Translations under genes and position numbers: made by a program
The notes under the pieces: model-generated
What the model was told of the DNA's origin: nothing
The model's database searches: none
The model's input: only the letters and a program-made list of their open reading frames with translations
Shown: in pieces, positions 407-19,816 of the stretch
Layout: each line of letters starts with the position of its first letter
Numbering within the stretch: the stretch's first letter is position 1
Origin: Methanobrevibacter smithii ATCC 35061
Lineage (GTDB): Archaea; Methanobacteriota; Methanobacteria; Methanobacteriales; Methanobacteriaceae
NCBI RefSeq assembly: GCF_000016525.1
Contig: NC_009515.1
Coordinates: 1,328,501-1,392,500, forward strand
Direction of reading: 5' to 3'
DNA: 64,000 nucleotides

Positions 407-1945
407 ATGTCTGATATTTCATATTCAAAATTTTTAATTAAATCTAAATTCAATCCAAAAAAAGCAAAAAAATACATGGAAAGCTATGATAAGATAATGG
501 AATCAGGATTATTTGATAAAAATTATTATCTTAAAGCGTATCCGCACATTGCTAAATCTGGAATGGATCCTTTGGTTCATTATTTATTTTATGGATATAA
601 GGAAGATAAAAATCCTTCTGCTCAGTTTAATTTAAAAAGATATTTGGAAGAATATCCGGAAATTAAAAAAATGGGATTAAATCCTTTAGTTCACTATATT
701 GACAATGATCATGAAGGTTTTACTTTGGAAGAAAATCCTTTTGTGGCACGCAGAAAGAAAATATTGGATACCAACTCTTTATTTTTAGCTGATTATAGCT
801 TTGATAGCGAACCTTTAGTTTCAATTATAATTTTAAACAGAAACGGTTTAGGACATTTGCAAAGATTATTTGCAGATTTTGATAAGAAAACAAATTATTC
901 AAACTATGAAATTATTGTAGTTGATAATGCGTCCTGTGATAAGTCTGTTGAGTATTTGCACTCTTTGGATTTGCCAATTAGAGTTATTGAAAACAGTGAA
1001 AATGTCAGCTTTTCAAAAGGAAACAATGATGCAGCTAAAATAGCTAATGGGGAGTATTTGATTTTATTGAATAATGATATTGAACCGACATACGGATGGC
1101 TTAATGAAATGGTTGGAACCGTCTTAAATAATGAAAATGTAGGTTCTGTTGGAGCCAAATTAATATTTCCTTACTATGAAGATATGGAAAGCCAGGGAAA
1201 ATCATTTTCAATTCAGCATGCAGGAGTAAAATTTAGAGAAGAAAGAACACCTTATATTTATGGGCCATATCATGAGCATATGTATTTAACAATGCTTTTT
1301 TCAGATGAGTTAAATCATCAAAAAGAAGTGATTTCAAATACTGCCGCATGTTTATTGGTTCCAAAAGAAGTTTATTTTGAATTGGACGGGCTGGATGAAC
1401 AGTATATTTATGGATATGAAGACATTGACTTTGCATTTAAGTTATACAAGGCAGGATATAAAACAATCTACAATCCTGCAGTGTTACTCTTCCATCATGA
1501 ATCAGCAACAAGACATGAAGATGATGACAGGAAAAATCAGCTGAATTATCACAATATAATGCACTTTGCTGATAAGTGGGGAGACTTCATTTTTAAGGAA
1601 ATTTTAAAGGATAAAATTGAGGCAAATAACTTTTTCACAAATAAAAAACTGGATTTCACGATTGTAGGTAAAAATAATGATTTAGTAAAAAAAGCAGTTT
1701 TTAAATTAAACAGTGAGGGTTATAATGTTAAACTTGTTCCCAATATTGGTGATTTGGACATCGGCCAGGACTGTGATATTTTAATATCAACTGAAAAGGA
1801 ATATGATATTAAAAATGTAAGCTCAAGACTTAATTTAATAAAAATTTTAATATCTGATGAAGATAATGATGGTTATGACATGGTTTTAAGTGAAAATGAC
1901 TTTGAATTTAATCTTTTAGATAAAATTAAAGAAAAATATTTGTGA
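407..1945 (+). CDS. GT2-family glycosyltransferase with N-terminal HY/G repeats
   Basis: This 512-residue protein would transfer a sugar from a nucleotide donor to a growing surface glycan. Two repeats of the type FDxxYYLxxYP...DPLVHYLxxG occupy residues 34-69 and 74-105. A GT-A/GT2 domain starts near residue 136 (EPLVSIIILNRNG), with the acidic donor/metal motif LLNNDIEP near 221-228 and a later YGYEDIDFAFK acid motif. Residues 400-512 form an extra alpha/beta domain, also present in the paralogue at 10805. The gene ends 4 bases before the next start. Donor and acceptor sugars cannot be read from the sequence. Confidence 0.85.
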   Translation: MSDISYSKFLIKSKFNPKKAKKYMESYDKIMESGLFDKNYYLKAYPHIAKSGMDPLVHYLFYGYKEDKNPSAQFNLKRYLEEYPEIKKMGLNPLVHYIDNDHEGFTLEENPFVARRKKILDTNSLFLADYSFDSEPLVSIIILNRNGLGHLQRLFADFDKKTNYSNYEIIVVDNASCDKSVEYLHSLDLPIRVIENSENVSFSKGNNDAAKIANGEYLILLNNDIEPTYGWLNEMVGTVLNNENVGSVGAKLIFPYYEDMESQGKSFSIQHAGVKFREERTPYIYGPYHEHMYLTMLFSDELNHQKEVISNTAACLLVPKEVYFELDGLDEQYIYGYEDIDFAFKLYKAGYKTIYNPAVLLFHHESATRHEDDDRKNQLNYHNIMHFADKWGDFIFKEILKDKIEANNFFTNKKLDFTIVGKNNDLVKKAVFKLNSEGYNVKLVPNIGDLDIGQDCDILISTEKEYDIKNVSSRLNLIKILISDEDNDGYDMVLSENDFEFNLLDKIKEKYL

Positions 1946-1949
1946 TACT

Positions 1950-4517
1950 ATGAGTTATGAGGAAATTTATGAAACATATCAGGAAGTTGCAAAGGAGCAT
2001 ATCAACAGGGATTTATTTAATCATTCCTCAGAAGATGCGGCTGAAACAATTGAAGATATTAAAAATAATAAAATAGCTATTTATACAGCTTTCACAGGTG
2101 ATTATGATACTCTAAAAGAACCTGAAGTAATTGATGAAAACTGTGATTACATATGTTTTACAGATAACCCTAATTTGGAGTCTGACACTTGGAAAATTAT
2201 TCAAATGGAAGAAACTACCTTAGACAATAATAGGAAAGCCAAACAATATAAATTACTTCCTCATAAATATTTAAAAGATTACAAATACAGTTTTTGGCTG
2301 GATGGGACATTTAGAATAAAAGGAAGCATCAGGGAATATATCTACAAAAACATCAGGGCTTCCTCTCCAATGCTTTGTGTAGTTCACACAGAAAGGGACT
2401 GTGTTTACGAGGAATACGAAGCTTCTAAAATAATTCCAAGATATCCTCGTGCTGTAATGGAAGAACAGATTAATTATTATAAAAGTCAGGGGTTCCCGGA
2501 AAAATACGGATTGGGAGTAATGGGAGCTATTTTCAGAAAACACAATGATTCCTTAGTTATTAAAGTCATGGAAGATTGGTGGAATGAAAATATCAGGTTT
2601 ACAAATCAGGACCAGCTTAGTTTTGCATATGTATGTTGGAAAAATGATTTCCATCCGTCAGTTAGTTTAATTTATTACTGGGACAATGAATACTGGGCCA
2701 AAGACAAGGGCAATTACCACCATAAGGTAGTGTTTTCAATGCCTATAACCAGTGATAACCTGAGAGCTAAAATAGGAACTCAGGTAGAAAATATGGACAT
2801 TGGGGATACAATCGAGCTTTCAAAAGAAGAAATGTATCTTTTAATTAATGATGTAAAAGGAATGGCAGGTTATAGAATAGATACTGCAGGCAGAGTGGGA
2901 TACCTGCAAAATGAATATAATACCTTTTTAAATTCCAATTCATTAAAGCTTACAAAACCGTTAAGAGTAGCTGGAGATGTAGCTAGAAAAGTTAAGAATA
3001 ACCATTTCTTAAAATTCGCCAAACATAAAAATGCAGAAGAAAACATTAATATTTATGATACTATAAAACATTTTGGCATTTTTGACGAGGCAGAATACAA
3101 AAAATTGCATGGGGAGGTTGGAGATGCTGTTTTACATTTTATAGAAGAAGGTTCAAAAACAGACAGCATTGATGATAAATTAAAATATATCAATTCAATA
3201 TTTGATTTATATTATTATATCAGCTCAAACAATCTTTCAGCTGATGAAGACCCTCTTATTCATTATATAACTAAAGGTTTTGATAAAAAATTAGCTATTA
3301 ATAGAAATTATCCTCATTTTGTCGAGTATTTGCATGGAAATTTACATGAGCAGTTAGATGCTTTTGTCACTAAAAGAATAAAAGAAAAACTGGCTGATGA
3401 GAGTTATATTTCAGATTCAAAAATTTTAATTGATTATATTCATACAAATCATGAATTTAAAACAGATACAATTAAAGTGGGAGTATTTTTAGAGGATAAT
3501 TTTGATAATATGAATGCATGTCCATTTATAAGGATTCATTCATTGTTTAAAGAGTTAAGCAAAAGCGGAGACTATCATTTCTTTGTTTATGGTCAGGAAA
3601 TTCTACCTTTAATTGATGTGAATCAAATAATCAAATCAAAAATCTTTGATGTAATTGTAATTCAAAGAGTAAATCCGTTTTCCACTAAACTAGCTAAAAA
3701 AGCTAAACAGCATGGAATTAAATTGGTTTATGAAACTGATGATGACTTTTTGGATATGAATTCGTCCAATCCCTCATTTAACTATATTCAGGGTAATTTG
3801 GCAAATATTAAAAAGCTGGTTTCTGCAGCTGATGAAATAGTTGTAAGTACTTCAGAGCTTAAAAGACGTTTCGATAACCTGAATTTGTCCAGCAATGTAA
3901 CAATCATTAGAAATTACTACTTGGATAATGTATTGCCATTAAAAGAATTTTCATATAGTGGCAATCAGTATGTAAAAATAGGTTACTTTGGAACAATGAC
4001 TCATAATAATGATTTGGAGCTTATTCATAATGTTATATTAAGATTAAAAGATATTTTCTCTAAAAAAGGTATTCAGGTTGATTTGGAAGTCATTGGAGCA
4101 TCTATTGATGAAAATGTAGACTGGTTCAATGTTAAAAAAATGCCGTATTATCCAATGTCAATGGCTACATTTATGAAGTGGATATCTGTCAGGGCGAACT
4201 GGGATATTGGAATAATTCCATTAGTTAACACAGAATTCAATAAATGCAAAAGTGAGTTAAAATACATTGAATTTACAGCTCTTGGAGTTCCGATAGTAGC
4301 TAGTGATGTTGATGCATATAAAGGTACTGTTGAAGAAGGAGTAACTGGATTTTTAGCCAATAGTGAAGATGAGTGGGTAAATAAATTATCTATGTTGATT
4401 GAAAATCCGAAACTTAGACATGGAATATTAAACAATGCACGTGATGATATTTTGAAAAACTATGATTTAAGATCCCGTGCAAAACAGTGGGATGAAATTT
4501 TTAAGAGGGTGTCCTGA
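1950..4517 (+). CDS. Two-enzyme fusion: DUF616-type transferase plus GT4-type glycosyltransferase
   Basis: The 855-residue protein has three parts. Residues about 40-260 match the DUF616 glycosyltransferase-like family (YTAFTGDYDTLKEPE, CDYICFTDNP, SFWLDGTFRI, NQDQLSFAYV). Residues about 355-460 carry degenerate copies of the HY/G repeat (GIFDEAEY; DPLIHYITKGF). Residues about 507-850 are a GT4/GT1-type glycosyltransferase (GVFLEDNFDN, VYETDDDFLDM, IGYFGTMTH, KCKSELKYIEFTALGVPIVAS). The first part is very similar to the separate gene at 9772 and the last to the separate gene at 6980, so this looks like a fusion of two activities acting on the same glycan. Substrates are unknown. Confidence 0.82.
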   Translation: MSYEEIYETYQEVAKEHINRDLFNHSSEDAAETIEDIKNNKIAIYTAFTGDYDTLKEPEVIDENCDYICFTDNPNLESDTWKIIQMEETTLDNNRKAKQYKLLPHKYLKDYKYSFWLDGTFRIKGSIREYIYKNIRASSPMLCVVHTERDCVYEEYEASKIIPRYPRAVMEEQINYYKSQGFPEKYGLGVMGAIFRKHNDSLVIKVMEDWWNENIRFTNQDQLSFAYVCWKNDFHPSVSLIYYWDNEYWAKDKGNYHHKVVFSMPITSDNLRAKIGTQVENMDIGDTIELSKEEMYLLINDVKGMAGYRIDTAGRVGYLQNEYNTFLNSNSLKLTKPLRVAGDVARKVKNNHFLKFAKHKNAEENINIYDTIKHFGIFDEAEYKKLHGEVGDAVLHFIEEGSKTDSIDDKLKYINSIFDLYYYISSNNLSADEDPLIHYITKGFDKKLAINRNYPHFVEYLHGNLHEQLDAFVTKRIKEKLADESYISDSKILIDYIHTNHEFKTDTIKVGVFLEDNFDNMNACPFIRIHSLFKELSKSGDYHFFVYGQEILPLIDVNQIIKSKIFDVIVIQRVNPFSTKLAKKAKQHGIKLVYETDDDFLDMNSSNPSFNYIQGNLANIKKLVSAADEIVVSTSELKRRFDNLNLSSNVTIIRNYYLDNVLPLKEFSYSGNQYVKIGYFGTMTHNNDLELIHNVILRLKDIFSKKGIQVDLEVIGASIDENVDWFNVKKMPYYPMSMATFMKWISVRANWDIGIIPLVNTEFNKCKSELKYIEFTALGVPIVASDVDAYKGTVEEGVTGFLANSEDEWVNKLSMLIENPKLRHGILNNARDDILKNYDLRSRAKQWDEIFKRVS

Positions 4518-4585
4518 TAAAAAAGTTTTTTATTAATGGAAAATTGATATTATTTCGTAAATTGTTTTAATTTCTTAAATAAAAG

Positions 4586-4614
4586 TTATATACTAATAAA
4601 ATTTATAATGGAGG
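4586..4614 (+). promoter_or_regulatory. TATA-like box and Shine-Dalgarno of a truncated gene
   Basis: TTATATA at 4586-4592 is followed by GGAGG at 4610-4614 and an ATG at 4626. The signals look complete, but the ATG opens a 29-codon frame that is out of register with the regulator-like sequence following it. They appear to be the preserved 5' end of the pseudogene at 4626-5482. The TATA-to-start spacing would put transcription initiation close to the ribosome binding site, so whether it is active is uncertain. Confidence 0.4.
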
Positions 4615-4625
4615 TAATAAATTTA

Positions 4626-5482
4626 ATGTACTTGTTAAAGATAGGGATACATATAAGTTTACTACTGCAGGTGCATTATTTTTTACAGAGAATCCTAATA
4701 AATTTGATGGAATAGATGTAGGGGTTAAGCTTGCTCGTTTTGATGGAACTGATAAAACGATATTCATTGATAAAGCTACTTTGAATGGTTCTTTATTAAA
4801 AATATTAAATGAAATTGAATCTTTTTTTAAAAGAAACACTAGATATGCTACAAAAATTATCGGTTTTGAAAGGTATGATATACCGGAATATCCATACGAT
4901 GCTGTAAGAGAAGCAATTATTAATGCAATTGCTCATAGGGATTATGAAATTAAGGGAACTGATGTAACATTTTTTATTTATGATGATAGAATTGAAATTA
5001 TTAGTCCGGGGAATTTAAAGTTTCCATTAACCTTGAATAATCTAGAGGATGGTAATTCTGTTAGGAGAAATGAAATAATCTGTAATTTGTTTCATCATAC
5101 AAAGTATATGGAGCAATATGGAACTGGAATTGAAAGAATTAAGACAAAAATGATTGAACATGGCCTGCCTGCACCTAAATTTGAATTGAATGGAAATTTT
5201 TTTAAAGTAATATTATATGGGCCTGGAGAAAATATTCTTAAATTACAAGATTCAGTTCATGCTAATAAAATAGATCTTAAAAAATATGATTTAAATGATA
5301 GACAATATAAACTTTTAGAAATACTTTCTCAAAATAATGAAAATATTACAAATAAAGAATATAGAGAATTATTTGAAGTATCAAGATCCACAGCAGCAAG
5401 AGATTTAAGAAGATTGGTTGAATTAAATTTGATTCAAAAATATGAGATCAGTGGCAAAGAAGTTATTTATTCAATTAAATAA
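4626..5482 (+). pseudogene. N-terminally truncated AlbA-2/divergent-ATPase transcriptional regulator
   Basis: From 4625 the frame reads a typical internal segment of the Schlafen/AlbA_2-HATPase_c_4 regulator family: KFTTAGALFF, then YPYDAVREAIINAIAHRDYE, IEIISPGNLKFP, then an EQYGTGIERI glycine motif. It ends in a winged-helix segment (NKEYRELFEVSRSTAARDLRRL). Intact members are usually about 450-500 residues and start with an AlbA_2 DNA-binding domain. Here that domain is absent, and no ATG in this frame lies near the ribosome binding site. The only well-placed ATG (4626) is in another frame and stops after 29 codons. A deletion that fused the start region to the middle of the gene fits best. 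Translation from the internal TTG at 4781 could still give a 233-residue fragment. Confidence 0.65.
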
Positions 5483-5565
5483 TTCTTAGGAATGATATGT
5501 TGATTAAAGTAAAATGTTTGTTTATTATTTTTAAGTTTCTTTAAGTATCTGTAACATGATACACT

Positions 5566-5832
5566 CATGACACACTTAAATATTTTTTTTAAGTTTTATT
5601 ATATTTGAATGGAGCTTTTATTATTGTGTGTTGTGTTGTGTTTTTTATTATTTTTTTGAAGTTTTCTTTCAGTATTTGTGTGTGTCCTATGCATGACACA
5701 CTTAAATATTTTTTTTAAGTTTTATTATATTTGAATGGAGCTTTTATTATTGTGTGTTGTGTTGTGTTTTTTATTATTTTTTTGAAGTTTTCTTTTAGTA
5801 TTTCACTTTGATGAATCATGACACACTAAAAT
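5566..5832. repeat. 126-bp tandem repeat, two full copies plus a partial third
   Basis: A 111-bp block starting CATGACACACTTAAAT is present at 5566-5676 and again at 5692-5802 with a single visible difference (TTTCAG versus TTTTAG), a period of 126 bp. A third start (CATGACACAC) occurs at 5817. The 40 bases before the first copy look like a decayed unit. Each copy contains CTTAAA...TTTAAG followed by T-runs, and a TGTGTGTTGTGTTGTG tract. It lies between the 3' ends of two convergent genes, so it may help terminate both transcripts. The stretch 5483-5832 holds no gene that I can support. Confidence 0.85.
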
Positions 5833-6942
5833 TCAAATCTTTTTTTTCAATCTCTGTTTTATATTTTTAGTTTTATACTTAAACCAGCCTTTTGTAGTTT
5901 GCAGATTAGCTATCTGCTGGGTTTTATGAGCCAATTCAACTTCCAGCTGATGGATTCTATTTCTAAATAGCTGATAATCACCCATGAGACTGTAGGCTTC
6001 ATCCAGATTTCTGGCTCTTATCTGGGTTATTATACTTTTAATTGCATTATTTTCAGGAGTCGGATTAACATCACCCATTTCGTCAAATAATTTAAGTGAC
6101 TTATTTACCAGCTCCTTTTTATCTTCAAAGTCAATTGTTTCACTTAGAGCCACATCACTAATCCAGCAGCTTAAATGCTGGTTAAAAATAGTGTCGTAAT
6201 ATTTGCATGCATTGTTTTTCTTAAGTACATCTACTGTATTATTATATCCTTCAATTAATCCATCTAAATAATGCATTCCTTTAGATAAACTTGTTGAGCT
6301 GTTATCACCAGTTCTTAATCTGAAATTATAAACAATATCATTTATAAAGACTATTTTTGAGGCATTCACAAAAGCATCAATCATAAAAGTTAAATCTTCG
6401 GCAAAAACTCCTTCCGGAAAAGTTATTTCATTTTTATTAAGGAAATCTTTTGGAAATATCATTCTCCATATATTATTTATTGAAAAAAAGCGTAAATCTT
6501 CATCAATTGAATTTAAAACAACATCATGTGTAATCCAGTCTTCAGGAACTATTTTTTGCTCTCCAAATGTTTGGAATTTTCCGATAGCTACATCACATGA
6601 ATTTTCAGTAACTGCATTGTATAACTTTTCAACACTTTCGGGCAGGTAATTGTCGTCATGATCAATAAACATTATATATTCTGCTGTAGAATTGGCTATT
6701 CCTATGTTTCTGGCTCTTCCTGGTGTTCCTGTTTTTTTACCTGATTCGAAGGTTTTTATATTTTCATATTTTTCACAATAGTGGTTTATTAACTCCTGTG
6801 TGTTGTCAGTAGAGTAATCATCAACAATAATCAGTTCTATATTTTCAAATCCGATGCTCTGGTTCATAATTGAAGCTATTGTTGAATCTAAAAATTCTAC
6901 ACTATTGTATGTTGGAATAATAACAGTGACTTTATAAGACAT
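5833..6942 (-). CDS. GT2-family glycosyltransferase
   Basis: This 369-residue protein begins with a GT2 fold (VTVIIPTYNS at 5-14, IELIIVDDYSTDNT near 36-48) and has the metal/donor motif IDHDD at 93-97. It belongs to the same subfamily as the tandem pair at 13901 and 14949: similar length, the same GTPGRARN-type segment, and a similar helical C-terminal half. The last 40 residues are charged and helical (coiled-coil-like, then basic KQRLKKK), suggesting a protein or membrane contact. It is the only glycosyltransferase of the island on the minus strand, divergent from the gene at 6980 with only 37 bases between. The sugar is unknown. Confidence 0.85.
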   Translation of the reverse strand: MSYKVTVIIPTYNSVEFLDSTIASIMNQSIGFENIELIIVDDYSTDNTQELINHYCEKYENIKTFESGKKTGTPGRARNIGIANSTAEYIMFIDHDDNYLPESVEKLYNAVTENSCDVAIGKFQTFGEQKIVPEDWITHDVVLNSIDEDLRFFSINNIWRMIFPKDFLNKNEITFPEGVFAEDLTFMIDAFVNASKIVFINDIVYNFRLRTGDNSSTSLSKGMHYLDGLIEGYNNTVDVLKKNNACKYYDTIFNQHLSCWISDVALSETIDFEDKKELVNKSLKLFDEMGDVNPTPENNAIKSIITQIRARNLDEAYSLMGDYQLFRNRIHQLEVELAHKTQQIANLQTTKGWFKYKTKNIKQRLKKKI

Positions 6943-6979
6943 AAATTTATTTTTATGTTAAGGTATTATATAATATATT

Positions 6980-8518
6980 ATGAATTTGTCTAAATCAATT
7001 AAAAGCAATCCTTTGGCTTACATAGCCATGAAATCAAAAGCCAATCCTAAAAAGATTTCAATGTATAAAAAAATTTATTCAAGGATTAAAAATTTGGAAT
7101 TAATTGATAAAGACAAATATTTGGCTATTCATGATGACTGCAAAACTCAGGATATGGATGTTAACCTTCATTATCTCTATTATGGAGTTAAAGATGATTT
7201 GGCTACTCAGCAGTCATATATCACAGATGTATTTAACCTTGAATTTTATAAAAACAGATATAGTGTTGAAAATCCTGTTTTTGATTATGTTTTAGAAGGA
7301 TTTTTTAAAAACAATCAAATCAATGTTTTTGACAGTAGGTATGTCAATACACTTGAAACTCCTATCTTCAATCAGTATTATGGGGGTCAAAATGATAAAC
7401 TGCTTTCGGAAGTTAAAGATAATTGCTATATAACTGATAAGCGAACTTTAATTCCATATATTCAGCTTGAAAAACCTATATATTCAGATAAAATTAGAAT
7501 TGGTGTTTTTACAAATGATCCTTTTGAAAATTTGGCCCCATGTCCATATATCCGACTTCATGCCCCATTTAATCAGCTAAGCAAATCTGATAAATACACC
7601 TTTTTCATGTATGGTATGGATAGCTATGTTATGATGGATATAGACAATATTTTAAGGTCTAAGCTATTTGATATTGTTGTTGTCCAAAGAATTTTGCCGT
7701 TTTTGGATTTGTTACTGGCCAGATGCAAAAAGCATGGTATTAAAGTTGTTTATGAAACTGATGATGATTTGTTGGGTGTTGAAAAAAACAGTCCTTCTTT
7801 TGAATATGTTGACAGTGTCAGAAGTCAAATAACTAATTTCATTGATAATGCAGATGCAGTAACTGTTACCACTCCTAATTTAGCTTCCAAATTTGATTCA
7901 GATAAGACTATGATAATACATAATTATTATGTAAATACTGTTTTTGATGTTAAAAAAGATATTAAAAGAGGTGGTAAATTAAAGTTAGGGTATTATGGAA
8001 CATTAACTCATTCTAAAGATTTGTTTTTAATTAAAGATGTTATTTTAAAGCTTAAAGAAAAATATGATTTTGATTTTGAGGTAATCGGAGGCTTTAATGC
8101 AGAGGATAATGTATGTGAAGACTGGTATGATGCTGTTGAGCTTCCTTCAAATAATATGTGTTTTGAGGTATTTATGCCATGGCTTTCAAAAGTGGCTAAT
8201 TGGGATGTTGCATTAGTTCCTTTGGAGAATTCAAAATTTAATTTGGGAAAAAGTGAATTAAAATATATTGAATTGGCAGTATTGGGGATTCCAGGCGTTT
8301 ATAGTGATATGCCTGTTTATAATGGTGTGGTTAAAGATGGTATCAATGGTTTATTAGCGAAGGATACTGAAGAATGGGTTTTAAAAATTGAAAAATTGCT
8401 TTTGGATTTGTCTTTAAGAGAAAATATTCGTAAAAACGCTCTGGAGGATGTTTTAAAAAATTATTCTTTAGATGATGTTGTAAGTATGTGGGATGAACTA
8501 TTTTCAAAATTGATTTAA
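6980..8518 (+). CDS. GT4-type glycosyltransferase with N-terminal repeat region
   Basis: The 512-residue protein starts with a basic helix (MKSKANPKKI) and degenerate HY/G repeats to about residue 115 (IDKDKYL...NLHYLYYG). From about 171 it has a GT4-type transferase: IGVFTNDPFENLAPCPYIR, VVYETDDDLLG, KLGYYGTLTH, then GKSELKYIELAVLGIPGVYS. This region closely parallels the C-terminal part of the fusion protein at 1950, including the unusual ETDDD motif. It is transcribed away from the minus-strand GT2 gene and ends before a 540-base gap. Probable role: addition of one sugar in surface glycan synthesis. Confidence 0.82.
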   Translation: MNLSKSIKSNPLAYIAMKSKANPKKISMYKKIYSRIKNLELIDKDKYLAIHDDCKTQDMDVNLHYLYYGVKDDLATQQSYITDVFNLEFYKNRYSVENPVFDYVLEGFFKNNQINVFDSRYVNTLETPIFNQYYGGQNDKLLSEVKDNCYITDKRTLIPYIQLEKPIYSDKIRIGVFTNDPFENLAPCPYIRLHAPFNQLSKSDKYTFFMYGMDSYVMMDIDNILRSKLFDIVVVQRILPFLDLLLARCKKHGIKVVYETDDDLLGVEKNSPSFEYVDSVRSQITNFIDNADAVTVTTPNLASKFDSDKTMIIHNYYVNTVFDVKKDIKRGGKLKLGYYGTLTHSKDLFLIKDVILKLKEKYDFDFEVIGGFNAEDNVCEDWYDAVELPSNNMCFEVFMPWLSKVANWDVALVPLENSKFNLGKSELKYIELAVLGIPGVYSDMPVYNGVVKDGINGLLAKDTEEWVLKIEKLLLDLSLRENIRKNALEDVLKNYSLDDVVSMWDELFSKLI

Positions 8519-9059
8519 GTTTATTTAATATTTTATAAACTTTACTTGATTTTTCTTAAAAATTATTATAATAAATGATTTAGCTACTTATTTTGGACAT
8601 TATTTCCATAGTATAAAGTGTTTTTATATAGTTCTTTGTTTAATATATGTTAAACTGTATATTGTTGTTGTATATTTGCTTGCTAACTGTTTTAAACAAT
8701 AAGGTTAATTTAGTTTTATGTAAAATTTAATTTTATTTAGTTTCTATTTTCCCACAGTTTCGGATGTTTTAGTTGTTGCAGTATTTATTTAAGTATTAAT
8801 AATTGTTATAGCATTTATTATTTCAATAATTTAATTAAAATTCTTAATTAAATTATAATAAAAAGTATAATATTTTATTTCATTTTTAAAGCTTTTTCAG
8901 TTTCATATATTATTTTTAAATATATTAAAAAAATTAATTACTATATTTATACCATAATTTTATATACAATTAATTTTAAAGTTGATTAGTGTGGATTTTT
9001 TTATTATTGAATGTTATTCATAATGAAAAAATTTACATATATGGAATATGGTGATTTGA
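8519..9059. other. Long AT-rich intergenic region with one inverted repeat
   Basis: No coding sequence that I can support lies in these 541 bases. A perfect 13-bp inverted repeat (arms 8826-8838 and 8844-8856, 5-base loop AATTC) could form a hairpin. Its arms are only A and T, so chance is a real alternative. The right end carries the promoter of the gene at 9060. The rest is runs of A and T with frequent stops in all frames. Confidence 0.5.
8959..8966 (+). promoter_or_regulatory. TATA box for the tandem small membrane proteins
   Basis: TTTATATA lies about 100 bases before the ATG at 9060. An archaeal start 25-30 nt downstream would give a leader of about 70 nt, with GGTGA at 9050-9054 as ribosome binding site. 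This is a motif reading only. Confidence 0.4.
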
Positions 9060-9326
9060 ATGTTAGAAGAGTATATACCTTTTATAGGTTTATTAATTTT
9101 CGGTAATATTGAAAACTTAGTATTATCTTCACAAGGTGTGGTTGCCGGAGCAAATATTTTAAAATTAAGTATTTACAGTATTATTTGTGTTCTTATTTGG
9201 CTTATTGTAGGAACTGTAGGGGCTACTGTTGCTGCACAATATGCTAGTTTCATTGATTTTGTTGGCGGTCTTGCTATCTTTATATTAGGTCTTCAAGCAA
9301 TGTATGAATCCATTGCAAATAAATAG
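9060..9326 (+). CDS. Small three-helix membrane protein, first of a tandem pair
   Basis: This 88-residue protein has three predicted membrane segments at about 5-24, 34-58 and 61-84. The first is interrupted by polar residues (FGNIENLVLSSQG), as in substrate-binding helices of small transporters. It is clearly paralogous to the next gene: both share GLLIFGNIENL-L-S-QG, a WL(I/L)(V/I)GT segment and GGLAIFILG. The three-helix size and the glycine-rich last helix resemble half of a six-helix LysE/MntP-like transporter, but I do not recognise the family. The start is fixed by GGTGA at 9050-9054. No signal peptide is seen apart from the first helix. Confidence 0.7.
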   Translation: MLEEYIPFIGLLIFGNIENLVLSSQGVVAGANILKLSIYSIICVLIWLIVGTVGATVAAQYASFIDFVGGLAIFILGLQAMYESIANK

Positions 9327-9344
9327 TTAATAGGGGATTAAAAT

Positions 9345-9623
9345 ATGGCAAATGAATTTAAACAATTTATGGGATTATTAATTTTTGGTAATATTGAAAA
9401 TTTAATATTGTCTGCACAAGGTGCAACAGCACATGTTGACCCATTCATATTAGGTGGGTTAAGTTTAATTTGTGTAGTTTGCTGGCTTTTAATAGGTACT
9501 TTTGGTACTAAATTCGCTATTAAATATGCTAGACACATTAACTTTATTGGCGGCCTTGCTATCTTCATTTTAGGTATTCAATCTATGATTGGAGCAATTC
9601 CAGGTATGTTAAAATTTTTTTAA
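9345..9623 (+). CDS. Small three-helix membrane protein, second of a tandem pair
   Basis: This 92-residue paralogue of the preceding gene follows it after 18 bases with its own GGGG ribosome binding site near 9333. It keeps the polar first helix (GLLIFGNIENLILSAQG), a Cys-containing second helix (LICVVCWLLIGTFG) and the GGLAIFILGIQ third helix. Two different half-size membrane proteins made from one transcript suggest a heterodimer that rebuilds a six-helix pore or transporter; this is inference. A strong terminator-like hairpin follows at 9641. The substrate is unknown, and so is any link to glycan synthesis. Confidence 0.7.
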   Translation: MANEFKQFMGLLIFGNIENLILSAQGATAHVDPFILGGLSLICVVCWLLIGTFGTKFAIKYARHINFIGGLAIFILGIQSMIGAIPGMLKFF

Positions 9624-9640
9624 GCATTTTTAATTTTTAG

Positions 9641-9701
9641 TTTGAAAAAGTTTTTAATCATTAAGTGTCTTAAAAACTTTTTTAAGCTATTATCTTTTTT
9701 T
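9641..9701 (+). terminator. Hairpin plus T-run after the tandem membrane genes
   Basis: Perfect 13-bp arms AAAAAGTTTTTAA (9645-9657) and TTAAAAACTTTTT (9670-9682) enclose a 12-base loop. They can be extended with G-U pairs and are followed by a T-run ending near 9701. This is a good candidate for the end of the two-gene transcript. Confidence 0.6.
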
Positions 9702-9771
9702 AGATATATTTAATTAATATTAAAATGAAAATTATTATCAGTTATTTTAATAAATTGTTTTGCTGATTTTT

Positions 9772-10812
9772 ATGACTGAGAATAATGTTGACCCTTATGA
9801 AGTAGTTAAAAAGAGATATGAATCAACAGTAGACAGCTTTGTTTTAAGTGATTTATTCCAACCTACTTTAGAAAGCAATCAGGAATTAATTGATGATGTT
9901 AAAGATAACAGATTAGTTATTTACACAGCGTTTACAGGAAATTATGATGAATTGAAAGAACCTGAGTTTATTGATGAAAATTGTGATTATGTATGCTTTA
10001 CAGAAAATCCTGATTTGGAATCTGACACATGGGAAATAGTTCAAATGGAAAAGTCAACATTGGATGATAACAGAAAAGCAAAACAATACAGGTTATTTAC
10101 AGATAAATACTTCCCAGAGTATAAATACAGTTTTTGGTTAGATGGAACTTTTAAAATCGTTGGAAGTATCAGGGAGTACATTTACAAGTATGCAAAATCT
10201 AAAATGCTTGTTGTTGTTCATCCGGAAAGAGACTGTATTTATGACGAGGCAGTAATGTCAATGCCGTTTCCAAGATATTCAAATTACACCATGACCAAAC
10301 AGGTTGAAAAGTACCGTTCTGAAGGAATGCCTGAACATTACGGTCTTCCAGCTACTGGTGCATTATTTAGGGCACATAACGATCCTGAAATTATTTCAAT
10401 CATGAGGCAATGGTGGAGGGAAGTTGTAAACTACACTAATCAGGACCAGTTAAGTCTGCCTTATGTCATGTGGAAAAATAATTTTCACCCGTCAGTTTCG
10501 GATGTTTATTATTGGGTTAATGAATACTGGTCTAAAGAAGGAAGTTATCAACATAATTTTGAAATTGAAGATTATATAACTAGCAGAAATTTAATTGAAT
10601 CTTTGGAGGGTAATATTAAAGATAAAAACACTTTAACTAAAGAGGAAATCAATTTGCTATTCAATGATATTGATGCACTTAGGGATGAAGCTAATGCATT
10701 AAACATAGCTCGTGATCATTGGGATAGACAGATTAGGGGAGTTAGAAATTCAACTTCTTGGAAATTAACTAGTAAGTTACGTAATATGCGAAATAGGGGA
10801 AACAATGACTAA
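9772..10812 (+). CDS. DUF616-type glycosyltransferase-like protein
   Basis: The 346-residue protein has the same DUF616 domain as the N-terminal part of the fusion at 1950 (YTAFTGNYDELKEPE, CDYVCFTENP, LDDNRKAKQYR, SFWLDGTFKIVGSIREYI, NQDQLSLPYVMWKN). The family is named for plant and bacterial proteins of GT-A-like fold; the actual sugar is unknown. The tail has the VRNSTSWKLTSKLR motif typical of the ends of surface glycosyltransferases, here followed by a basic RNMRNRG. I chose ATG 9772; an in-frame TTG at 9760 has no ribosome binding site. The end overlaps the next gene by 8 bases, implying translational coupling. Confidence 0.78.
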   Translation: MTENNVDPYEVVKKRYESTVDSFVLSDLFQPTLESNQELIDDVKDNRLVIYTAFTGNYDELKEPEFIDENCDYVCFTENPDLESDTWEIVQMEKSTLDDNRKAKQYRLFTDKYFPEYKYSFWLDGTFKIVGSIREYIYKYAKSKMLVVVHPERDCIYDEAVMSMPFPRYSNYTMTKQVEKYRSEGMPEHYGLPATGALFRAHNDPEIISIMRQWWREVVNYTNQDQLSLPYVMWKNNFHPSVSDVYYWVNEYWSKEGSYQHNFEIEDYITSRNLIESLEGNIKDKNTLTKEEINLLFNDIDALRDEANALNIARDHWDRQIRGVRNSTSWKLTSKLRNMRNRGNND

Positions 10813-12406
10813 ACATTTGATTAATTTCTTGATTAAATCCAATTTTGATTTTAGAAAAGCCATGAAAAATTATAAATATTATGGGGCTATTGAAGAATCC
10901 GGGCTTTTTGATGAAAAGTTTTACTCTAAAACTTATGATGATGTTAAGGGGGACGGTTTAACTCATTATCTGGTTAAAGGATACTTGGAAGGAAGGCTTC
11001 CGAGTCTGGATTTTGACCCCGACTTTTATAATAATAATTATCCTGATGTTCACAGGGCTCAGTTAAATCCTTTACTTCATTATATTGCTCATGGAAAAGA
11101 TGAAGGCAAAATATTTCAATATGCATATTCTGTTAGGAGAAAAGAGGAAATTTGCGAAACAAATTCAGTATTCTTAACTAATTATGAATTTGACACAGAA
11201 CCTCTGGTTTCTATTATCATACTGACAAGAAATGGTTTAGGTCACCTTAAAAGATTATTTAAAGATTTTGATAAGAAAACCAATTATTCAAATTATGAAA
11301 TTATTGTTGTGGATAACGCCTCAGCAGATGAATCTGTCAGCTATTTGAAAAATCTGGATTTGCCAATTAGAATAATTGAAAATGAGGAAAATGTCAGCTT
11401 TTCAAAAGGAAACAATGATGCAGCCAAAATAGCCAACGGGGAATATATATTACTTTTAAACAATGATATTGAACCTACTTACGGATGGCTTAATGAAATG
11501 GTGGGAGCTATTGTTAATGATGAGGATGCAGCGTCTGTAGGTGCGAAATTGGTTTTTCCATTTTATGAAAACAACAGGAAAAAGTCATTTAGAATTCAGC
11601 ATAGTGGTGACATCTTTGCAGAAAGGATGTATCCTTGCTGTTTATATGCAATCAATAAAAGTAATGACCATTTAGACATTTTTGACTCTTCACTTACAAA
11701 GAATGCCCAATGTGTTGCAGTTACAGGAGCTGTTGACCTAATTGATAAAAAAGTCTATGATGAGCTTGGGGGTCTTGACGAAGATTATATTTACGGCCTT
11801 GAAGATGTTGATTTTTCATTAAAATTACATAAAAAGGGTTATAAAACCATTTTAGCTTCCAATGCTTTACTTTTCCATCATGAATCAAGTACAAGGGTTA
11901 AATCCAAAGATTATGAAGATAATGATAAACATAATTACAAAGTATTTTGGTCTAAATGGGGAAATTATCTTTCTAAAAATATGCTTTTAGATAAAATACA
12001 TGATAACAAATTTTTCACTCAAAAGAAACTTAAAATTACAATAGTTGATGAAAATTATCATGATAATTTTGAATTTTTATCTAAAATTTCCAAAGGCTTC
12101 AATGAATTGGGTTTTACAGTTGAGCTGATTTCGGATCTGGAAAACATGTATATTGGAAACTCTTCAGATATTTTGCTTTGTCTATCTGAGGATTATGATT
12201 TGGAAAATATGGTGGCCAGGGATGATATTGTCAGGGTATTTATTTCACAAAACAGTAAAGATAATCCCAAAGGTTATGATATTGTAGTATCTGATGAAAA
12301 TAAGACTTTTGATTCCAAATATAATTTTGCAATTAAAGATAATTTTGTTAAAGAATTTTTGGAGAATTTGGAAGATATTTTAATAAAAAGTGACGGATTT
12401 TTATGA
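10805..12406 (+). CDS. GT2-family glycosyltransferase with N-terminal HY/G repeats
   Basis: This 533-residue paralogue of the gene at 407 starts with a helix (LIKSNFDFRKAM), then two HY/G repeats (GLFDEKFYSKTYDDV...THYLVKGYLEGRLP; DPDFYNNNYPDV...LLHYIAHG). The GT2 domain begins near residue 133 (EPLVSIIILTRNG), with the LLNNDIEPTYGWLNEM donor motif and YGLEDVDFSLK. The GT2 core is almost identical to the copy at 407, whereas the acceptor-side middle (about residues 255-320) has diverged, which suggests different acceptors. The C-terminal alpha/beta domain is shared with 407. It overlaps its neighbours on both sides (8 and 4 bases). Confidence 0.85.
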   Translation: MTKHLINFLIKSNFDFRKAMKNYKYYGAIEESGLFDEKFYSKTYDDVKGDGLTHYLVKGYLEGRLPSLDFDPDFYNNNYPDVHRAQLNPLLHYIAHGKDEGKIFQYAYSVRRKEEICETNSVFLTNYEFDTEPLVSIIILTRNGLGHLKRLFKDFDKKTNYSNYEIIVVDNASADESVSYLKNLDLPIRIIENEENVSFSKGNNDAAKIANGEYILLLNNDIEPTYGWLNEMVGAIVNDEDAASVGAKLVFPFYENNRKKSFRIQHSGDIFAERMYPCCLYAINKSNDHLDIFDSSLTKNAQCVAVTGAVDLIDKKVYDELGGLDEDYIYGLEDVDFSLKLHKKGYKTILASNALLFHHESSTRVKSKDYEDNDKHNYKVFWSKWGNYLSKNMLLDKIHDNKFFTQKKLKITIVDENYHDNFEFLSKISKGFNELGFTVELISDLENMYIGNSSDILLCLSEDYDLENMVARDDIVRVFISQNSKDNPKGYDIVVSDENKTFDSKYNFAIKDNFVKEFLENLEDILIKSDGFL

Positions 12407-13911
12407 GTTTTAAGAATAGGTTAATGAGTAAAATTCCAGCTAGCTATATTTTACATAAATCATCCAATAAAACAGAGGCTAAGTTAATTGTTAAAGGATA
12501 TAATGCGATTCGTAAAAATAACTTGTTTGATGATGAATTTTACTTAAATAAATATCCTAAAGTTAAAGCTTCAGGAATGGATCCTCTCCTTCATTATATT
12601 TTCTTCGGATTCAATGAGGGAAAAAAGCCAAATAAGGATTTTGATGGGGTATTTTATAAATATCACTATGATGATGTGGAGATTAATCCTTTAATTCACT
12701 ATGCATTATATGGAATTGATGAAAACCGCCAGATTAAAGTAGCCAATGAAGATTTGGCCAATTTCAATGATTTAAATAAAACTAATATATTATTTGTTCT
12801 ACATGAAAAAATAGGAACTATTGGAGGCACAGGCTTTACCAATCTGGATATTATAAACAGCTTGGATAAAAGATTTGGGGCATTTATTTTAACTTCTGAT
12901 GGGGAAGATGTTGAGCTGTGGAAATTCACATCTTCTTTAGAAAAAATAGCTAATTTTAACTGTCATCCTAAAAAATATGAATTTTTAGACAATAGGTTAG
13001 CTGGTATTTACGAAGAAATCCTATCAAAATTAGATATTAAAATTATTCATATTAATCATTTAATTAACCATACTTTTGATCTAGCCGAAATAGCAAATAA
13101 AAAAAGAATTCCTTATATTGTAAGTATACATGATTTTTATTATATCTGTCCATCAATTCATTTAATCAATGAAAATTACAGTTATTGCGAGTTCAAATGT
13201 AAAACTTGCAAATTTGAAACTATTTTAAAGGATTGGCAAAAATACGGTTTTAAATTACTTGAAAATGCTTATTTAAATATTGTACCGTCTGATTCAGTAA
13301 TTGAAATCTATAAATCGGTTTATCCGGATTTAAATAATTTTAAATTAATCAAACATGGGCGAGATATTGAAAAATCAAATATTGAACCTGAATTATCTAA
13401 AAATCCAATTAAAATAGCTATTCCTGGCCATATCTCACAGCATAAGGGATCTTTATTGATTAAAAAAATAAAAAATTTAGATAAGGACAATGCACTGGAA
13501 CTGCACTTTATGGGAACTGCAATTCCAAATTTAAATAAATATGGGATAAATCATGGAAGGTATAAAAGGGGAGATTTTAATAAAGTAATAGCTGAAATCA
13601 ATCCTTCATTTATAGCTATTTTATCAACATGTCCTGAAACATTCTCACATACATTAACCGAAAGCTGGAAATCAGGGATTCCAGTAATAGCTACAAACAT
13701 TGGAGCACTAAAGGAAAGAGTTAATAAGACTGGTGGAGGATGGTTAGTGGATTATAAGAATCCGCAAAAAATATATGATAAGATTCTAAGTATTGATGAA
13801 ACAGATTATCTGGAAAAAGTAGAAAATATATCCAAAATCAATTTTAAAAGCCTTAAAGAAATGACTGATGAATACAATAAGATATATGGGGAAATGTCTG
13901 ATGAATTATAA
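12403..13911 (+). CDS. GT4-family glycosyltransferase with N-terminal HY/G repeats
   Basis: The 502-residue protein carries two HY/G repeats at about 33-112 (NLFDDEFYLNKYPKV...DPLLHYIFFGFNEGKKP; NPLIHYALYG). A GT4 transferase follows from about 127 (NILFVLHEK...GGTGFTN). It has the SIHDFYYICPS segment and a Cys cluster (CEFKCKTCKFE) common in cytoplasmic GT4 enzymes, then IPGHISQHKGS and a donor-site region ETFSHTLTESWKSGIPVIAT. It starts with an ATGA overlap on the preceding stop. The sugar is unknown. It probably works in sequence with the other repeat-bearing enzymes of the operon. Confidence 0.85.
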   Translation: MSFKNRLMSKIPASYILHKSSNKTEAKLIVKGYNAIRKNNLFDDEFYLNKYPKVKASGMDPLLHYIFFGFNEGKKPNKDFDGVFYKYHYDDVEINPLIHYALYGIDENRQIKVANEDLANFNDLNKTNILFVLHEKIGTIGGTGFTNLDIINSLDKRFGAFILTSDGEDVELWKFTSSLEKIANFNCHPKKYEFLDNRLAGIYEEILSKLDIKIIHINHLINHTFDLAEIANKKRIPYIVSIHDFYYICPSIHLINENYSYCEFKCKTCKFETILKDWQKYGFKLLENAYLNIVPSDSVIEIYKSVYPDLNNFKLIKHGRDIEKSNIEPELSKNPIKIAIPGHISQHKGSLLIKKIKNLDKDNALELHFMGTAIPNLNKYGINHGRYKRGDFNKVIAEINPSFIAILSTCPETFSHTLTESWKSGIPVIATNIGALKERVNKTGGGWLVDYKNPQKIYDKILSIDETDYLEKVENISKINFKSLKEMTDEYNKIYGEMSDEL

Positions 13912-16157: not shown

Positions 16158-16943
16158 ATGTTTGAAAACAATGTGTATGTGCAAAATTTTAATAAGTATA
16201 CTTTTCTACTTACTGAATTGATTAAAAGGGATATAAGTGGAAAATATAAGGATTCTACTTTAGGTTTATTCTGGAGTTTTTTAAATCCGTTATTATCTAT
16301 GATTGTTTTAACAATGGTTTTCTCTTTAATATTTGCAAATACAATTGAGAATTTCCCGGTTTATTTGCTAAGTGGTAAATTGGTATTTGATTTATTTGCT
16401 AATGCTACTACTGGAGCTATGGATTCTATTAAGGCAAATTCAGAGATTATTAAGAAGATTTATGTTCCCAAATACATGTTTGCTGTTGGAATTGTCTGTT
16501 CAGAGTTTATTAACTTTTTAATCTCTTTGGTGGTATTGGTTGCTGTAATGATATTTACAGGTGCTCCGTTTCATTTTGCGCTGATTTACTCACCGATTCC
16601 ATTGTTTTTCTTATTGGTTTTAACAATGGGGGTAGGTTTAATCCTTGCAACAGCTACAACATTTTTTACGGATATTAAATATTTATATGGGGTTCTTGTA
16701 ATGCTTTTATCATTTATGACTCCGTTGTTCTATCCGATTGACATTATTCCTCAGCAGTTCTTATTTGCATATAAATTAAATCCTTTATATTCTGCTGTTG
16801 AGTGTTTCAGAAACATTATACTTGGCGGAACTTTCCCGGATACCTGGCCGTTTGTGTTTTTAATTGTAACTTCAATAATTTCACTTGTCATTGGTGTTTA
16901 TGTATTCTTCAAGTATCAGGATAAATTTGTACTTAATATATAA
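16158..16943 (+). CDS. ABC-2 type polysaccharide exporter permease (Wzm/TagG-like)
   Basis: This 261-residue membrane protein has the typical N-terminus of polysaccharide exporters (LIKRDISGKYKDSTLGLFWS) followed by six hydrophobic segments spread over residues about 30-255, and the FYPIDIIPQ segment near its centre. Such permeases form a dimer that moves a lipid-linked polysaccharide across the cytoplasmic membrane, powered by a partner ATPase. The partner gene follows after 15 bases. In a pseudomurein-walled methanogen the cargo would be a surface polysaccharide or teichoic-acid-like polymer; which one is not known. Confidence 0.88.
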   Translation: MFENNVYVQNFNKYTFLLTELIKRDISGKYKDSTLGLFWSFLNPLLSMIVLTMVFSLIFANTIENFPVYLLSGKLVFDLFANATTGAMDSIKANSEIIKKIYVPKYMFAVGIVCSEFINFLISLVVLVAVMIFTGAPFHFALIYSPIPLFFLLVLTMGVGLILATATTFFTDIKYLYGVLVMLLSFMTPLFYPIDIIPQQFLFAYKLNPLYSAVECFRNIILGGTFPDTWPFVFLIVTSIISLVIGVYVFFKYQDKFVLNI

Positions 16944-16949
16944 GGAGGT
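16944..16949 (+). promoter_or_regulatory. Strong Shine-Dalgarno that fixes a TTG start
   Basis: GGAGGT directly after the permease stop codon, nine bases before TTG at 16959, shows that the exporter ATPase begins at this TTG. No ATG lies in this frame until well inside the N-terminal domain. The strong site with a weak start codon may set the ATPase-to-permease ratio. Confidence 0.7.
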
Positions 16950-16958
16950 TTTTTTAGT

Positions 16959-18719
16959 TTGACTATTCAAGTAAGATATCCAAAAGTTATTACTCAGGAA
17001 GAAAATTCCAATAAGTCTGAATGGGTTGATTTAAATAATGTTAGAATCGATGATTGGGATGAATTGGCTTCTACAGTAGTTAAATCAAATGAAGCTCCTC
17101 AGGTTATATGTACAAGTCATTTTGATTTTAATATTCCTGGTGATGCCAAAGTATCAGAAATTATTGTAGAACATGATTTTCATAAAGATTCTTCTGAAAA
17201 TCCTATTAAAATGGATCCTCCAATGATTAAGGCAGTCATAGGGGATAATGAATTTGAAAAGGAATCCTTTGTCCATGCAGATGTTTATCCTGCAGACAGA
17301 TCTGTAAAGATAACTGTCGATGACATCAGAGGTGAGGACATCAACAATGATTTTGCCGTTAAAGTAGAATTTCCTAAAAACACAAGTGAAAATGACGGAA
17401 TACTTTATTTTGATTATGTTCGTGTTAAATTAGTTTTTGAAGTTAAAAGATATCTCATAACTTCTGGTGAAACTAACAATTATTTCCCAACAAAAGAAAA
17501 ACCTATAAAAATAGCAGTAGGTGAAGAATTAAGGTACTCTATTTACTTCAGAAATGTGAATGGTATTTCAAAAGAACCTCAGAAGGTTAAAATCAATGTT
17601 CCTGAAGGTTTTGAACTTGTAAAATATTATTTCAAACCTAAAAAGGTTAATAAATTAGCTGAAAAAGATGTTGAAGTAGCTGAAGATATATTTGATGAAA
17701 AGAATTATGTTTGGATTCCTTCAGCACGCGGAAAAGGAATGTCCGGATTGAGATTGATTCTTAAAGCTACCCATGAAGGATCCAGCCATATAAATGCTTA
17801 TACTAAACATTATGGTGCAACTCCTAATTTTTATGTTGAAGTTCATCCTGAAGGCTTTGAAAGCCCGGTTAACATGTTTGATGAAACTTCAGGGGTTTGG
17901 GCTTCTGAATTGGAAGATAATGAAGAATTTCAGAAATTAAATCAGGAAGTAGCTATTGAAGTTGACAATGTATCTATGGAATTTGAAATGCCTCAGGAAA
18001 AAGTGGATAATCTAAAAGAATATTGTATTAAATGGGCCAAAAGAGAACTTAAGCCTAAAACCAACTTCAAAGCACTTAATGATTTGTCATTTACCATTAA
18101 CAAAGGTGAAAGGGTAGGAATTATAGGATTCAATGGTGCAGGTAAAAGTACTCTTTTAAAAGTCTTGTCCGGGGTATTTAAACCAACTAAAGGTAAGGTA
18201 TACACTGCTGGAAAAATAGCTCCGTTACTGGAACTTGGTGCAGGTTTTGACCATAATTACAGTGGAAGGGAAAACGTATTTTTAAACGGAGCAATATTGG
18301 GTTATTCCAAGGAGTTTCTATTAAGCAAATATGATGAAATTGTTGAATTTTCAGAACTTGGAGACTTTATGGAAATTCCAATTAAGAATTATTCTTCCGG
18401 TATGAATGCCAAGCTTGGCTTTTCAGTAGCTACTGTTGTTGAGCCGGATATATTGATTTTGGACGAAATTCTATCTGTTGGAGATGTAAAATTCCAGAAG
18501 AAAAGTGGGGACAAACTTAAATCTATGATGGGTTCAGGAGTTACTGTTCTTTTAGTATCACATTCAACTGCTAAAATAAGGGAATTATGTACCAGAGCTA
18601 TTTGGTTGGATAAAGGTAAGGTTATAATGGATGGTAATGTGGATTATGTCTGCGATGCATATATTGAAGCAGCTAAAAAAGCATCTGCAGATGAAATTAA
18701 AGATTTAGAGCTTGTATAA
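16959..18719 (+). CDS. Wzt/TagH-like exporter ATPase with two N-terminal beta-sandwich domains
   Basis: The 586-residue protein ends in a complete ABC ATPase (about 325-570): Walker A GFNGAGKST near 388-396, signature YSSGMNAKLGFS, Walker B ILILDEILSVGD and H-loop LLVSHS. The YSSGM signature is typical of polysaccharide and teichoic-acid exporters. Before it lie about 300 residues predicted to be all-beta. Residues 1-165 resemble the jelly-roll units of methanogen adhesins (EWVDLNNVRIDD, HFDFNIPGDAKVSEI, LYFDYVRVKL). Residues 166-300 resemble a DUF11/CARDB-like sandwich (YSIYFRNVNG, KINVPEGFEL). Classical Wzt has its glycan-binding sandwich at the C-terminus, which is absent here. The frame is uninterrupted. 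Confidence 0.85.
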   Translation: MTIQVRYPKVITQEENSNKSEWVDLNNVRIDDWDELASTVVKSNEAPQVICTSHFDFNIPGDAKVSEIIVEHDFHKDSSENPIKMDPPMIKAVIGDNEFEKESFVHADVYPADRSVKITVDDIRGEDINNDFAVKVEFPKNTSENDGILYFDYVRVKLVFEVKRYLITSGETNNYFPTKEKPIKIAVGEELRYSIYFRNVNGISKEPQKVKINVPEGFELVKYYFKPKKVNKLAEKDVEVAEDIFDEKNYVWIPSARGKGMSGLRLILKATHEGSSHINAYTKHYGATPNFYVEVHPEGFESPVNMFDETSGVWASELEDNEEFQKLNQEVAIEVDNVSMEFEMPQEKVDNLKEYCIKWAKRELKPKTNFKALNDLSFTINKGERVGIIGFNGAGKSTLLKVLSGVFKPTKGKVYTAGKIAPLLELGAGFDHNYSGRENVFLNGAILGYSKEFLLSKYDEIVEFSELGDFMEIPIKNYSSGMNAKLGFSVATVVEPDILILDEILSVGDVKFQKKSGDKLKSMMGSGVTVLLVSHSTAKIRELCTRAIWLDKGKVIMDGNVDYVCDAYIEAAKKASADEIKDLELV

Positions 18720-18721
18720 GT

Positions 18722-19816
18722 ATGTATCTTAAACATAAAATTTATGGAAAACTCTTTAATTTATTTACAAAGTTTTCAATTAATGATAAGCAAATATCCT
18801 TTATTTTAGATTCCAGCGAATCATTTAAGGGAAATTTGGATTATATTAAAAAGGAATTTGAAAAAAGAGGAGATTTCCAATTTAACTTTTTTTATAAGGA
18901 TAAATTATCTTTTTCCAGTTTTAAAAGATTGGCTACTTCCAGATATGTATTTCTGAATGATAATTTTTTTCCATTGGCTTTCATGAATTTTAAAAAGGAT
19001 ACAAAAGTGATTCAGCTATGGCATGCTCCAGGTGCCTTTAAAAAGTTTGGTGCATCAAGTGATAATAAATCCAGAAATATTTTAGGTAAAATCAGCAGGA
19101 ATATTGATTATCTGATTACCTCTTCAGACAATATTGAAGATTATTACAGTGAAGCATTTCAGATAAATAAATCTAAAATCAAGTCTTTAGGTCTTCCAAG
19201 AGCAGATTATTACTTTAAAAATCATAATTTGGATAAATTAAGGGATAATTTTGATTCCAAATATCCTATAGCTAAAAATAAAAAAATAGTGCTTTATGCA
19301 CCTACATTTAGGGATAATCCTGAGAACAATAATGTTTTTAACTTTTTAGATTTGGAAAAATTCAATAGGGAGTTGGGGGACGAATACATTTTGGTGTTAA
19401 GGCTCCATCCTAAGATTAAAAAGTTTTTTAAAGATAAAATCGAAGTTAATCAGGAATATGTTGATTGCAGTGATTTTAAAAATGAACAGGAGCTTCTGTT
19501 AATTTCTGATGTTTTAATAAGTGATTATTCATCAATAATGATTGAATTTGCTTTGTTGGATAAACCAATAATCTTTTTTACTTATGATTATGATACATAC
19601 ATGTCTGAAGATAGGGGATTTTACTTTGATTTTAAAGAAAATGTTCCGGGACCTGTTGTTTATACAACTGATGAGCTGATAGCTGAAATTAAAAATAATG
19701 ATTTCGATAAAAATAAAATTTCCGAGTTTAGAAAAACACAATTTAATGCAACTGACGGTGAAGCATCTAAAAGAGTAGTTGATTTCTTATTAAATGATGG
19801 TGGAAAAAATGGATAA
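18722..19816 (+). CDS. CDP-glycerol glycerophosphotransferase-like protein (TagB/TagF family)
   Basis: The 364-residue protein matches the glyphos_transf family: QLWHAPGAFKKFG, LGLPRADYYF, VLYAPTFRDNPEN, LRLHPKIKKFF, then LLISDVLISDYSSIMIEFAL and IFFTYDYDTY. In Gram-positive bacteria this family polymerises glycerol- or ribitol-phosphate from CDP-alditols to make teichoic acid, acting at the inner membrane face. The His in WHAPG and the SDYSS segment, both important in the bacterial enzymes, are present. It starts 2 bases after the exporter ATPase, so the exported polymer may contain phosphodiester-linked units. Some relatives use other CDP-activated groups. Confidence 0.85.
   Translation: MYLKHKIYGKLFNLFTKFSINDKQISFILDSSESFKGNLDYIKKEFEKRGDFQFNFFYKDKLSFSSFKRLATSRYVFLNDNFFPLAFMNFKKDTKVIQLWHAPGAFKKFGASSDNKSRNILGKISRNIDYLITSSDNIEDYYSEAFQINKSKIKSLGLPRADYYFKNHNLDKLRDNFDSKYPIAKNKKIVLYAPTFRDNPENNNVFNFLDLEKFNRELGDEYILVLRLHPKIKKFFKDKIEVNQEYVDCSDFKNEQELLLISDVLISDYSSIMIEFALLDKPIIFFTYDYDTYMSEDRGFYFDFKENVPGPVVYTTDELIAEIKNNDFDKNKISEFRKTQFNATDGEASKRVVDFLLNDGGKNG

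Follow-up and report, generated by a model that had tools for sequence, protein, structure and literature searches.

The first kilobases of the window, the whole 64,000-nucleotide stretch of Methanobrevibacter smithii ATCC 35061 DNA that was analysed, raise the question of why transferases of unrelated families carry the same pair of repeats. Five proteins, all encoded on the forward strand, share one two-repeat module of around 90 aa. In a GT2 glycosyltransferase (407..1945; PF00535 at residues 139-252, E = 2e-18), a K-rich helix (407-466) is followed by the module at residues 21-102 (467..712, profile match of 112 bits), and a second GT2 enzyme (10805..12406; PF00535, E = 5e-21) has it also at the N-terminus (10862..11110, 98 bits). 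The same N-terminal position was found in two GT4 glycosyltransferases, one at 12403..13911 (PF13692, E = 1e-9; module at 12481..12729, 107 bits) and the other at 6980..8518 (PF00534, E = 8e-9; module at 7058..7312, 65 bits, with a degenerate second repeat). The fifth copy is internal and degenerate (3039..3287, 43 bits), within a TOD1_MUCI70-module-GT4 fusion (1950..4517; PF04765, E = 2e-18; PF13692, E = 4e-8). These coordinates and module placements agree with those proposed in an earlier note on this DNA. With Pfam only the catalytic domains of the five proteins were recognized, leaving the repeats uncovered. Other glycosyltransferase genes of the cluster, at 5833, 9760, 13868 and 14949, have no module; that at 9760 encodes a stand-alone TOD1_MUCI70 protein (9760..10812, forward strand; PF04765, E = 3e-18), whose C-terminal end consists of a coiled coil and the motif STSWKLTSKLR, as detected by a motif scan. 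Inside the cluster, two glycosyltransferase genes are separated by an isolated fragment with RecG-C/HATPase_c_4 and winged-helix parts (4781-5482).

A profile built from the repeats was searched against the complete genome (1,853,160 bp), as the earlier note had proposed, and gave exactly five module matches (E from 1.8e-45 to 2.9e-29) with no sixth copy up to E = 10, all of them inside the cluster and spanning about 12 kb. With leave-one-out profiles each copy was still detected, at E values of 9e-26 (407), 7e-22 (10805), 3e-19 (12403), 2e-16 (6980) and 2e-8 (1950), and no match was found among 1,017 reversed ORFs used as control. By BLASTP, the module regions of the GT2 enzyme at 407 and the GT4 enzyme at 12403 are 41% identical over 97 aa (E = 3e-17), so that their likeness is not due to chance. 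Two repeats of the type FD-Y-(Y)P-DPLxHY-G were detectable by profile in all five proteins. The repeat described previously does exist, but not as a single motif, as the unit comprises two repeats and an N-terminal helix (~105 aa); most of the ten repeats depart from the literal pattern FDxxYxxxYP...(D/N)PLxHYxxxG, and those of 6980 and 1950 are degenerate. Each repeat is about 38 aa long, and the two consensus repeats are identical at 24 of 33 positions. The cluster fits the published region of M. smithii rich in laterally transferred genes, Msm_1278-Msm_1331, in which 17 glycosyltransferases were described (PMC3445992).

The structure of the module was modelled with AF2 from seven sequences (window positions 407-724), giving a pLDDT of 89.5 and a pTM of 0.81, and the model confidently predicts an all-helical unit with three short helices per repeat. 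The absence of a common fold in such models had been named beforehand as an outcome that would count against a shared module, and what was found is one compact fold. Full-length 10805, modelled from an alignment of two sequences, reached a pLDDT of 37. Among 220 distinct modules one Y (100%), a G (97%), a P (95%) and a H (93%) are near-invariant, followed by a second Y (88%), a F (87%) and a second H (85%). The module had no match in Pfam (E up to 10), NCBIfam, PHROGs or PDB sequences, the Foldseek search of the model against the PDB gave 0 matches, and a literature search with the motif text returned nothing relevant; as far as these sequence and structure sources go, the module is undescribed.

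The five carriers are not five otherwise different transferases, as had been put forward. They do belong to unrelated families, but the proteins at 407 and 10805 are full-length paralogues (50% identity) and the C-terminal half of 1950, with its module and GT4 domain, is paralogous to 6980 (38% identity), which leaves three catalytic lineages; the TOD1 half of 1950 is in turn 51% identical to the protein at 9760. Homologues of the GT4 domain of 12403 fall in four architectural classes. It is found alone with a single N-terminal module, in clusters of the M. smithii type; at the C-terminus of large proteins of 1.6-2.5 kaa, typically [2-12 modules]-GT2-TOD1-GT4, where it lacks a module of its own; as part of module-GT2-GT4 proteins; and as solitary ORFs of 413-488 aa with zero modules. 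According to the logic of Rosetta-stone proteins, enzymes that are separate in M. smithii are thus a single polypeptide elsewhere, and whereas M. smithii has one module per separate carrier enzyme, the fused enzymes of other genomes of the family pool their modules as one array. For the same catalytic domain, homologues that lack a module are found at 35-46% identity, and module-less GT2 homologues of 407 were detected in L064, L065 and L138. The possibility that the module is a normal component of the catalytic fold, raised beforehand as a potential refutation, does not hold, because such homologues exist; these comparisons support a non-catalytic module, separable from catalytic domains of unrelated families.

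The order of the cluster, namely module-GT2, TOD1-module-GT4, opposite-strand GT2, module-GT4, TOD1, module-GT2 and module-GT4, is kept in eight related genomes. Downstream, on the forward strand, are genes for a Wzm-like ABC-2 polysaccharide-export permease (16158..16943; PF01061, E = 2e-16), a Wzt-like ABC exporter ATPase with a long N-terminal extension (16959..18719; PF00005 at residues 373-504) and a CDP-glycerol glycerophosphotransferase-like enzyme (18722..19816; PF04464, E = 2e-78). Any ABC permease would be uninformative, being present in 109 of 119 genomes, so a close orthologue of the 16158 permease was used as the test; of the 17 genomes in which 12403 has a close orthologue, 16 also have this permease, against 0 of the remaining 102 (Fisher p = 6e-19). 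The module cluster and its own ABC polysaccharide exporter are co-inherited. G005 and G008 have minimal loci made up of module-GT2, GT2, permease, ATPase and glycerophosphotransferase, in an order that matches the downstream end of the M. smithii cluster, and the glycerophosphotransferase is beside the exporter in the same order in L129 and L130. The presence of a PF04464 enzyme within an archaeal polysaccharide cluster suggests a teichoic-acid-like polymer, and the product of the cluster would be an ABC-exported surface polymer, possibly containing glycerophosphate. About 330 aa ahead of the ABC domain of the ATPase have no Pfam match, and this N-terminus is about 190 aa shorter in the orthologues of the minimal loci (L129, L130).

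The module is a real, widespread and unannotated accessory domain. Among 119 Methanobacteriaceae genomes it was detected in 64, each having between 1 and 22 matches, and it occurs also in Proteobacteria, Bacteroides and cyanobacteria, being frequent in alphaproteobacterial plasmids and sparse in gammaproteobacteria, where 12 of a sample of 276 had it at E<=1e-8; a Luteimonas locus (L035) was found through a single-protein scan of bacteria. The idea that similar repeats occur in bacterial surface-polysaccharide proteins was right, and the distribution is far broader than it had stated. Partner domains include GT2, GT4, GT8, GT61, WbsX, RgpF, TOD1, CDP-glycerol glycerophosphotransferase, methyltransferase and sulfotransferase, and there are also secreted or presumably secreted carriers, M10 metallopeptidase and RTX/Hint proteins. 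In 118 ORFs the module was N-terminal (83), internal (22) or C-terminal (13). Free-standing module-only proteins were represented by just one bacterial case, a 154-aa Bradyrhizobium protein (L041:9761-10222) that is almost module only, adjoins a module-bearing WbsX-GT4-GT2 protein and is possibly a free-standing adaptor. Archaeal candidates for such proteins were discarded, those of L138, L139 and L140 being truncated by contig or region ends and that of L137 (5474-6295) being a 274-aa ORF in which the N-terminal module is followed by what by eye is a methyltransferase-like domain.

What the module does most likely is to help hold the synthesis machinery or the growing polymer together. The earlier note had offered two roles, a docking tag and an acceptor-binding unit, and each has evidence in its favour. 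Building on the homology of the modules, their separability, the helical fold model, the conserved cluster, the co-inherited exporter and the fusions found elsewhere, the best explanation, which we prefer only tentatively, is that it acts as a docking or assembly element of membrane-associated, ABC-exported polysaccharide synthases. Membrane placement of the enzyme would be due to a cationic leader helix, and its helical repeats would bind a neighbouring subunit, either another module or a common partner. One growing chain could in this way be served by glycosyl-, glycerophospho-, methyl- or sulfo-transferases whose folds are unrelated, and the product, presumably a polysaccharide, would exit by the ABC transporter. 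The presence of the same module on many glycan-acting catalytic families argues for docking, as do the conservation of the cluster, its co-inheritance with the exporter and, by the Rosetta-stone logic, the fusions. The archaeal segment ahead of the module has a net charge of +0.125 per residue, versus -0.025 in the rest. In four bacterial loci (L035, L037, L042 and L047) a protein that ends in a module is encoded immediately upstream of one that begins with a module, and in L035, L037 and L047 the upstream protein has the arrangement coiled coil, cationic S(W)(K/R)xTAPxR segment and module. A cationic motif S(T/R)(S/A)W(K/R)L(T/A)xxLR is found at coiled-coil ends of TOD1, sulfotransferase and methyltransferase proteins, often just ahead of the module (10750-10782, L035:4911-4943 and L039:8591-10129).

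The closest known systems are the ABC-dependent O-antigen synthases of the WbdD/WbdA type, from E. coli O9a and K. pneumoniae O3/O4/O7. They share with the module loci a multi-enzyme cytoplasmic polymerisation coupled to ABC export, catalytic units on separate or fused proteins, and a coiled-coil protein whose C-terminal recruitment region is close to the membrane (PMC11231755, PMC3482155). The coiled-coil C-terminal region of WbdD contains its amphipathic helix and the site that recruits the polymerase (PMC11231755, PMC3482155), a position occupied in L035, L037 and L047 by the cationic segment and module, and the parts of the K. pneumoniae O4/O7 synthases interact regardless of their distribution over polypeptides (PMC11231755). 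The M. smithii locus has a Wzm/Wzt-type exporter (PF01061 and PF00005 genes, 16158-18719) and several glycosyltransferase units on separate or fused proteins, but a coiled-coil methyltransferase/kinase terminator was absent among the domains found in the first 20 kb of the window (1-20 kb), whereas an enzyme of the coiled-coil terminator type is present in bacterial loci L035 and L037. In contrast to the module loci, no two-repeat module has been described for the WbdD/WbdA system; here a homologous module is present on several enzymes, both archaeal and bacterial, and in many cases a coiled coil is absent. The terminator ORF7 (GT137) of K. pneumoniae O4 also combines a polysaccharide-terminating enzyme with a helical bundle, but this is described as TPR-like and ahead of the coiled coil (PMC11231755), whereas our module had no Foldseek match in the TPR-rich PDB. 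TPR/Sel1 units are, like the module, short helical repeats of 34-40 aa, but the module is predicted to have three short helices per repeat, and no TPR/Sel1 match appeared in Pfam (E up to 10) or among the Foldseek-PDB results (0 matches). The paired C-terminal and N-terminal modules and the likeness to WbdD favour docking.

Other observations stand against docking. Single copies of the module in the near-complete genomes G005, G008 and G010 rule out that modules of different proteins must always pair, secreted M10/RTX carriers cannot enter a cytoplasmic synthase, and fused enzymes retain and multiply their modules, up to 12 copies. The single-copy genomes, the secreted carriers and the growth of arrays after fusion fit at least as well a binding of the polymer and would also be in line with a generic role; with evidence on both sides, polymer binding ranks just behind docking and is nearly as likely. 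According to this second reading, the module would be a helical glycan-binding unit that keeps the growing polymer or its lipid-linked acceptor near the catalytic domains, which would confer choice of acceptor or processivity, and secreted proteins would be anchored by it to surface polysaccharide. All the cytoplasmic carriers examined act on glycans, methyl- and sulfotransferases included, the single-copy genomes function without a partner module, and tandem arrays of 2-12 modules on multi-glycosyltransferase polymerases are the usual pattern for binding modules; module clades specific to enzymes and the near-invariant aromatic and His residues point in the same direction. However, the invariant residues may serve structure only, many unrelated host polymers would demand varied binding sites, and the paired C- and N-terminal placement is left without explanation. 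Helical carbohydrate-binding modules are rare, which also weighs against glycan binding, with precedents in SLH domains and in the N-terminal domain of Caulobacter RsaA. SLH and other helical polysaccharide-binding domains are, as the module, helical, repeated and found on secreted proteins, but the module motif differs from that of SLH, and no known carbohydrate-binding or SLH profile of Pfam matched. Concerted evolution of the modules inside a genome was considered and rejected, as the module tree groups by orthologue or enzyme and not by genome; such a tree shows old, enzyme-specific modules and is neutral between docking and glycan binding.

Much less probable is that the module constitutes a generic spacer or structural solenoid, a kind of ruler that binds no ligand and that recombination has disseminated between glycosyltransferase genes. 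Its highly variable copy number (1-12), its shifting N-terminal, internal or C-terminal position, the tolerance of degenerate copies in 1950 and 6980 and the faster evolution of the 1950 module with respect to its catalytic part (51 versus 66% mean identity) would be expected of such an element, but the strong conservation of residues across archaea and bacteria would not, and the 12403 module is better conserved than its catalytic domain (73 versus 61%). That the repeats simply belong to the catalytic fold of glycosyltransferases, as their constant location ahead of the catalytic domain with a short linker in the five window proteins might suggest, is refuted already by the module-less GT4 and GT2 homologues and by the sharing of the module among unrelated folds, and deserves hardly any credence.

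Since the module is common but missing from the profile libraries that were searched, the annotation of many surface-polysaccharide enzymes overlooks it, and a profile of the module would find such synthase components whatever their catalytic family. If docking or polymer holding is true, it would offer a handle on the organisation and exchange of multi-enzyme polysaccharide synthases, including those of M. smithii, the main methanogen of the human gut. A more ambitious proposal, about which we are rather doubtful, is that this undescribed helical repeat domain serves the surface-polysaccharide synthases of archaea and bacteria alike as a common adaptor; whatever catalytic family acquired the module could then join an ABC-exported polymer assembly line, and enzyme repertoires would be exchangeable among species and domains of life.

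A phage or viral origin of the module was also considered and rejected, with one marginal phage record (E = 0.7) and zero matches in viral contigs. Foldseek comparison of the model with BFVD gave weak matches (probability up to 0.97, E of 0.09-0.3) to glycosyltransferases of the giant viruses Harvfovirus and Hyperionvirus and to a DUF5672 protein, suggesting that the module may be also present in giant viruses.
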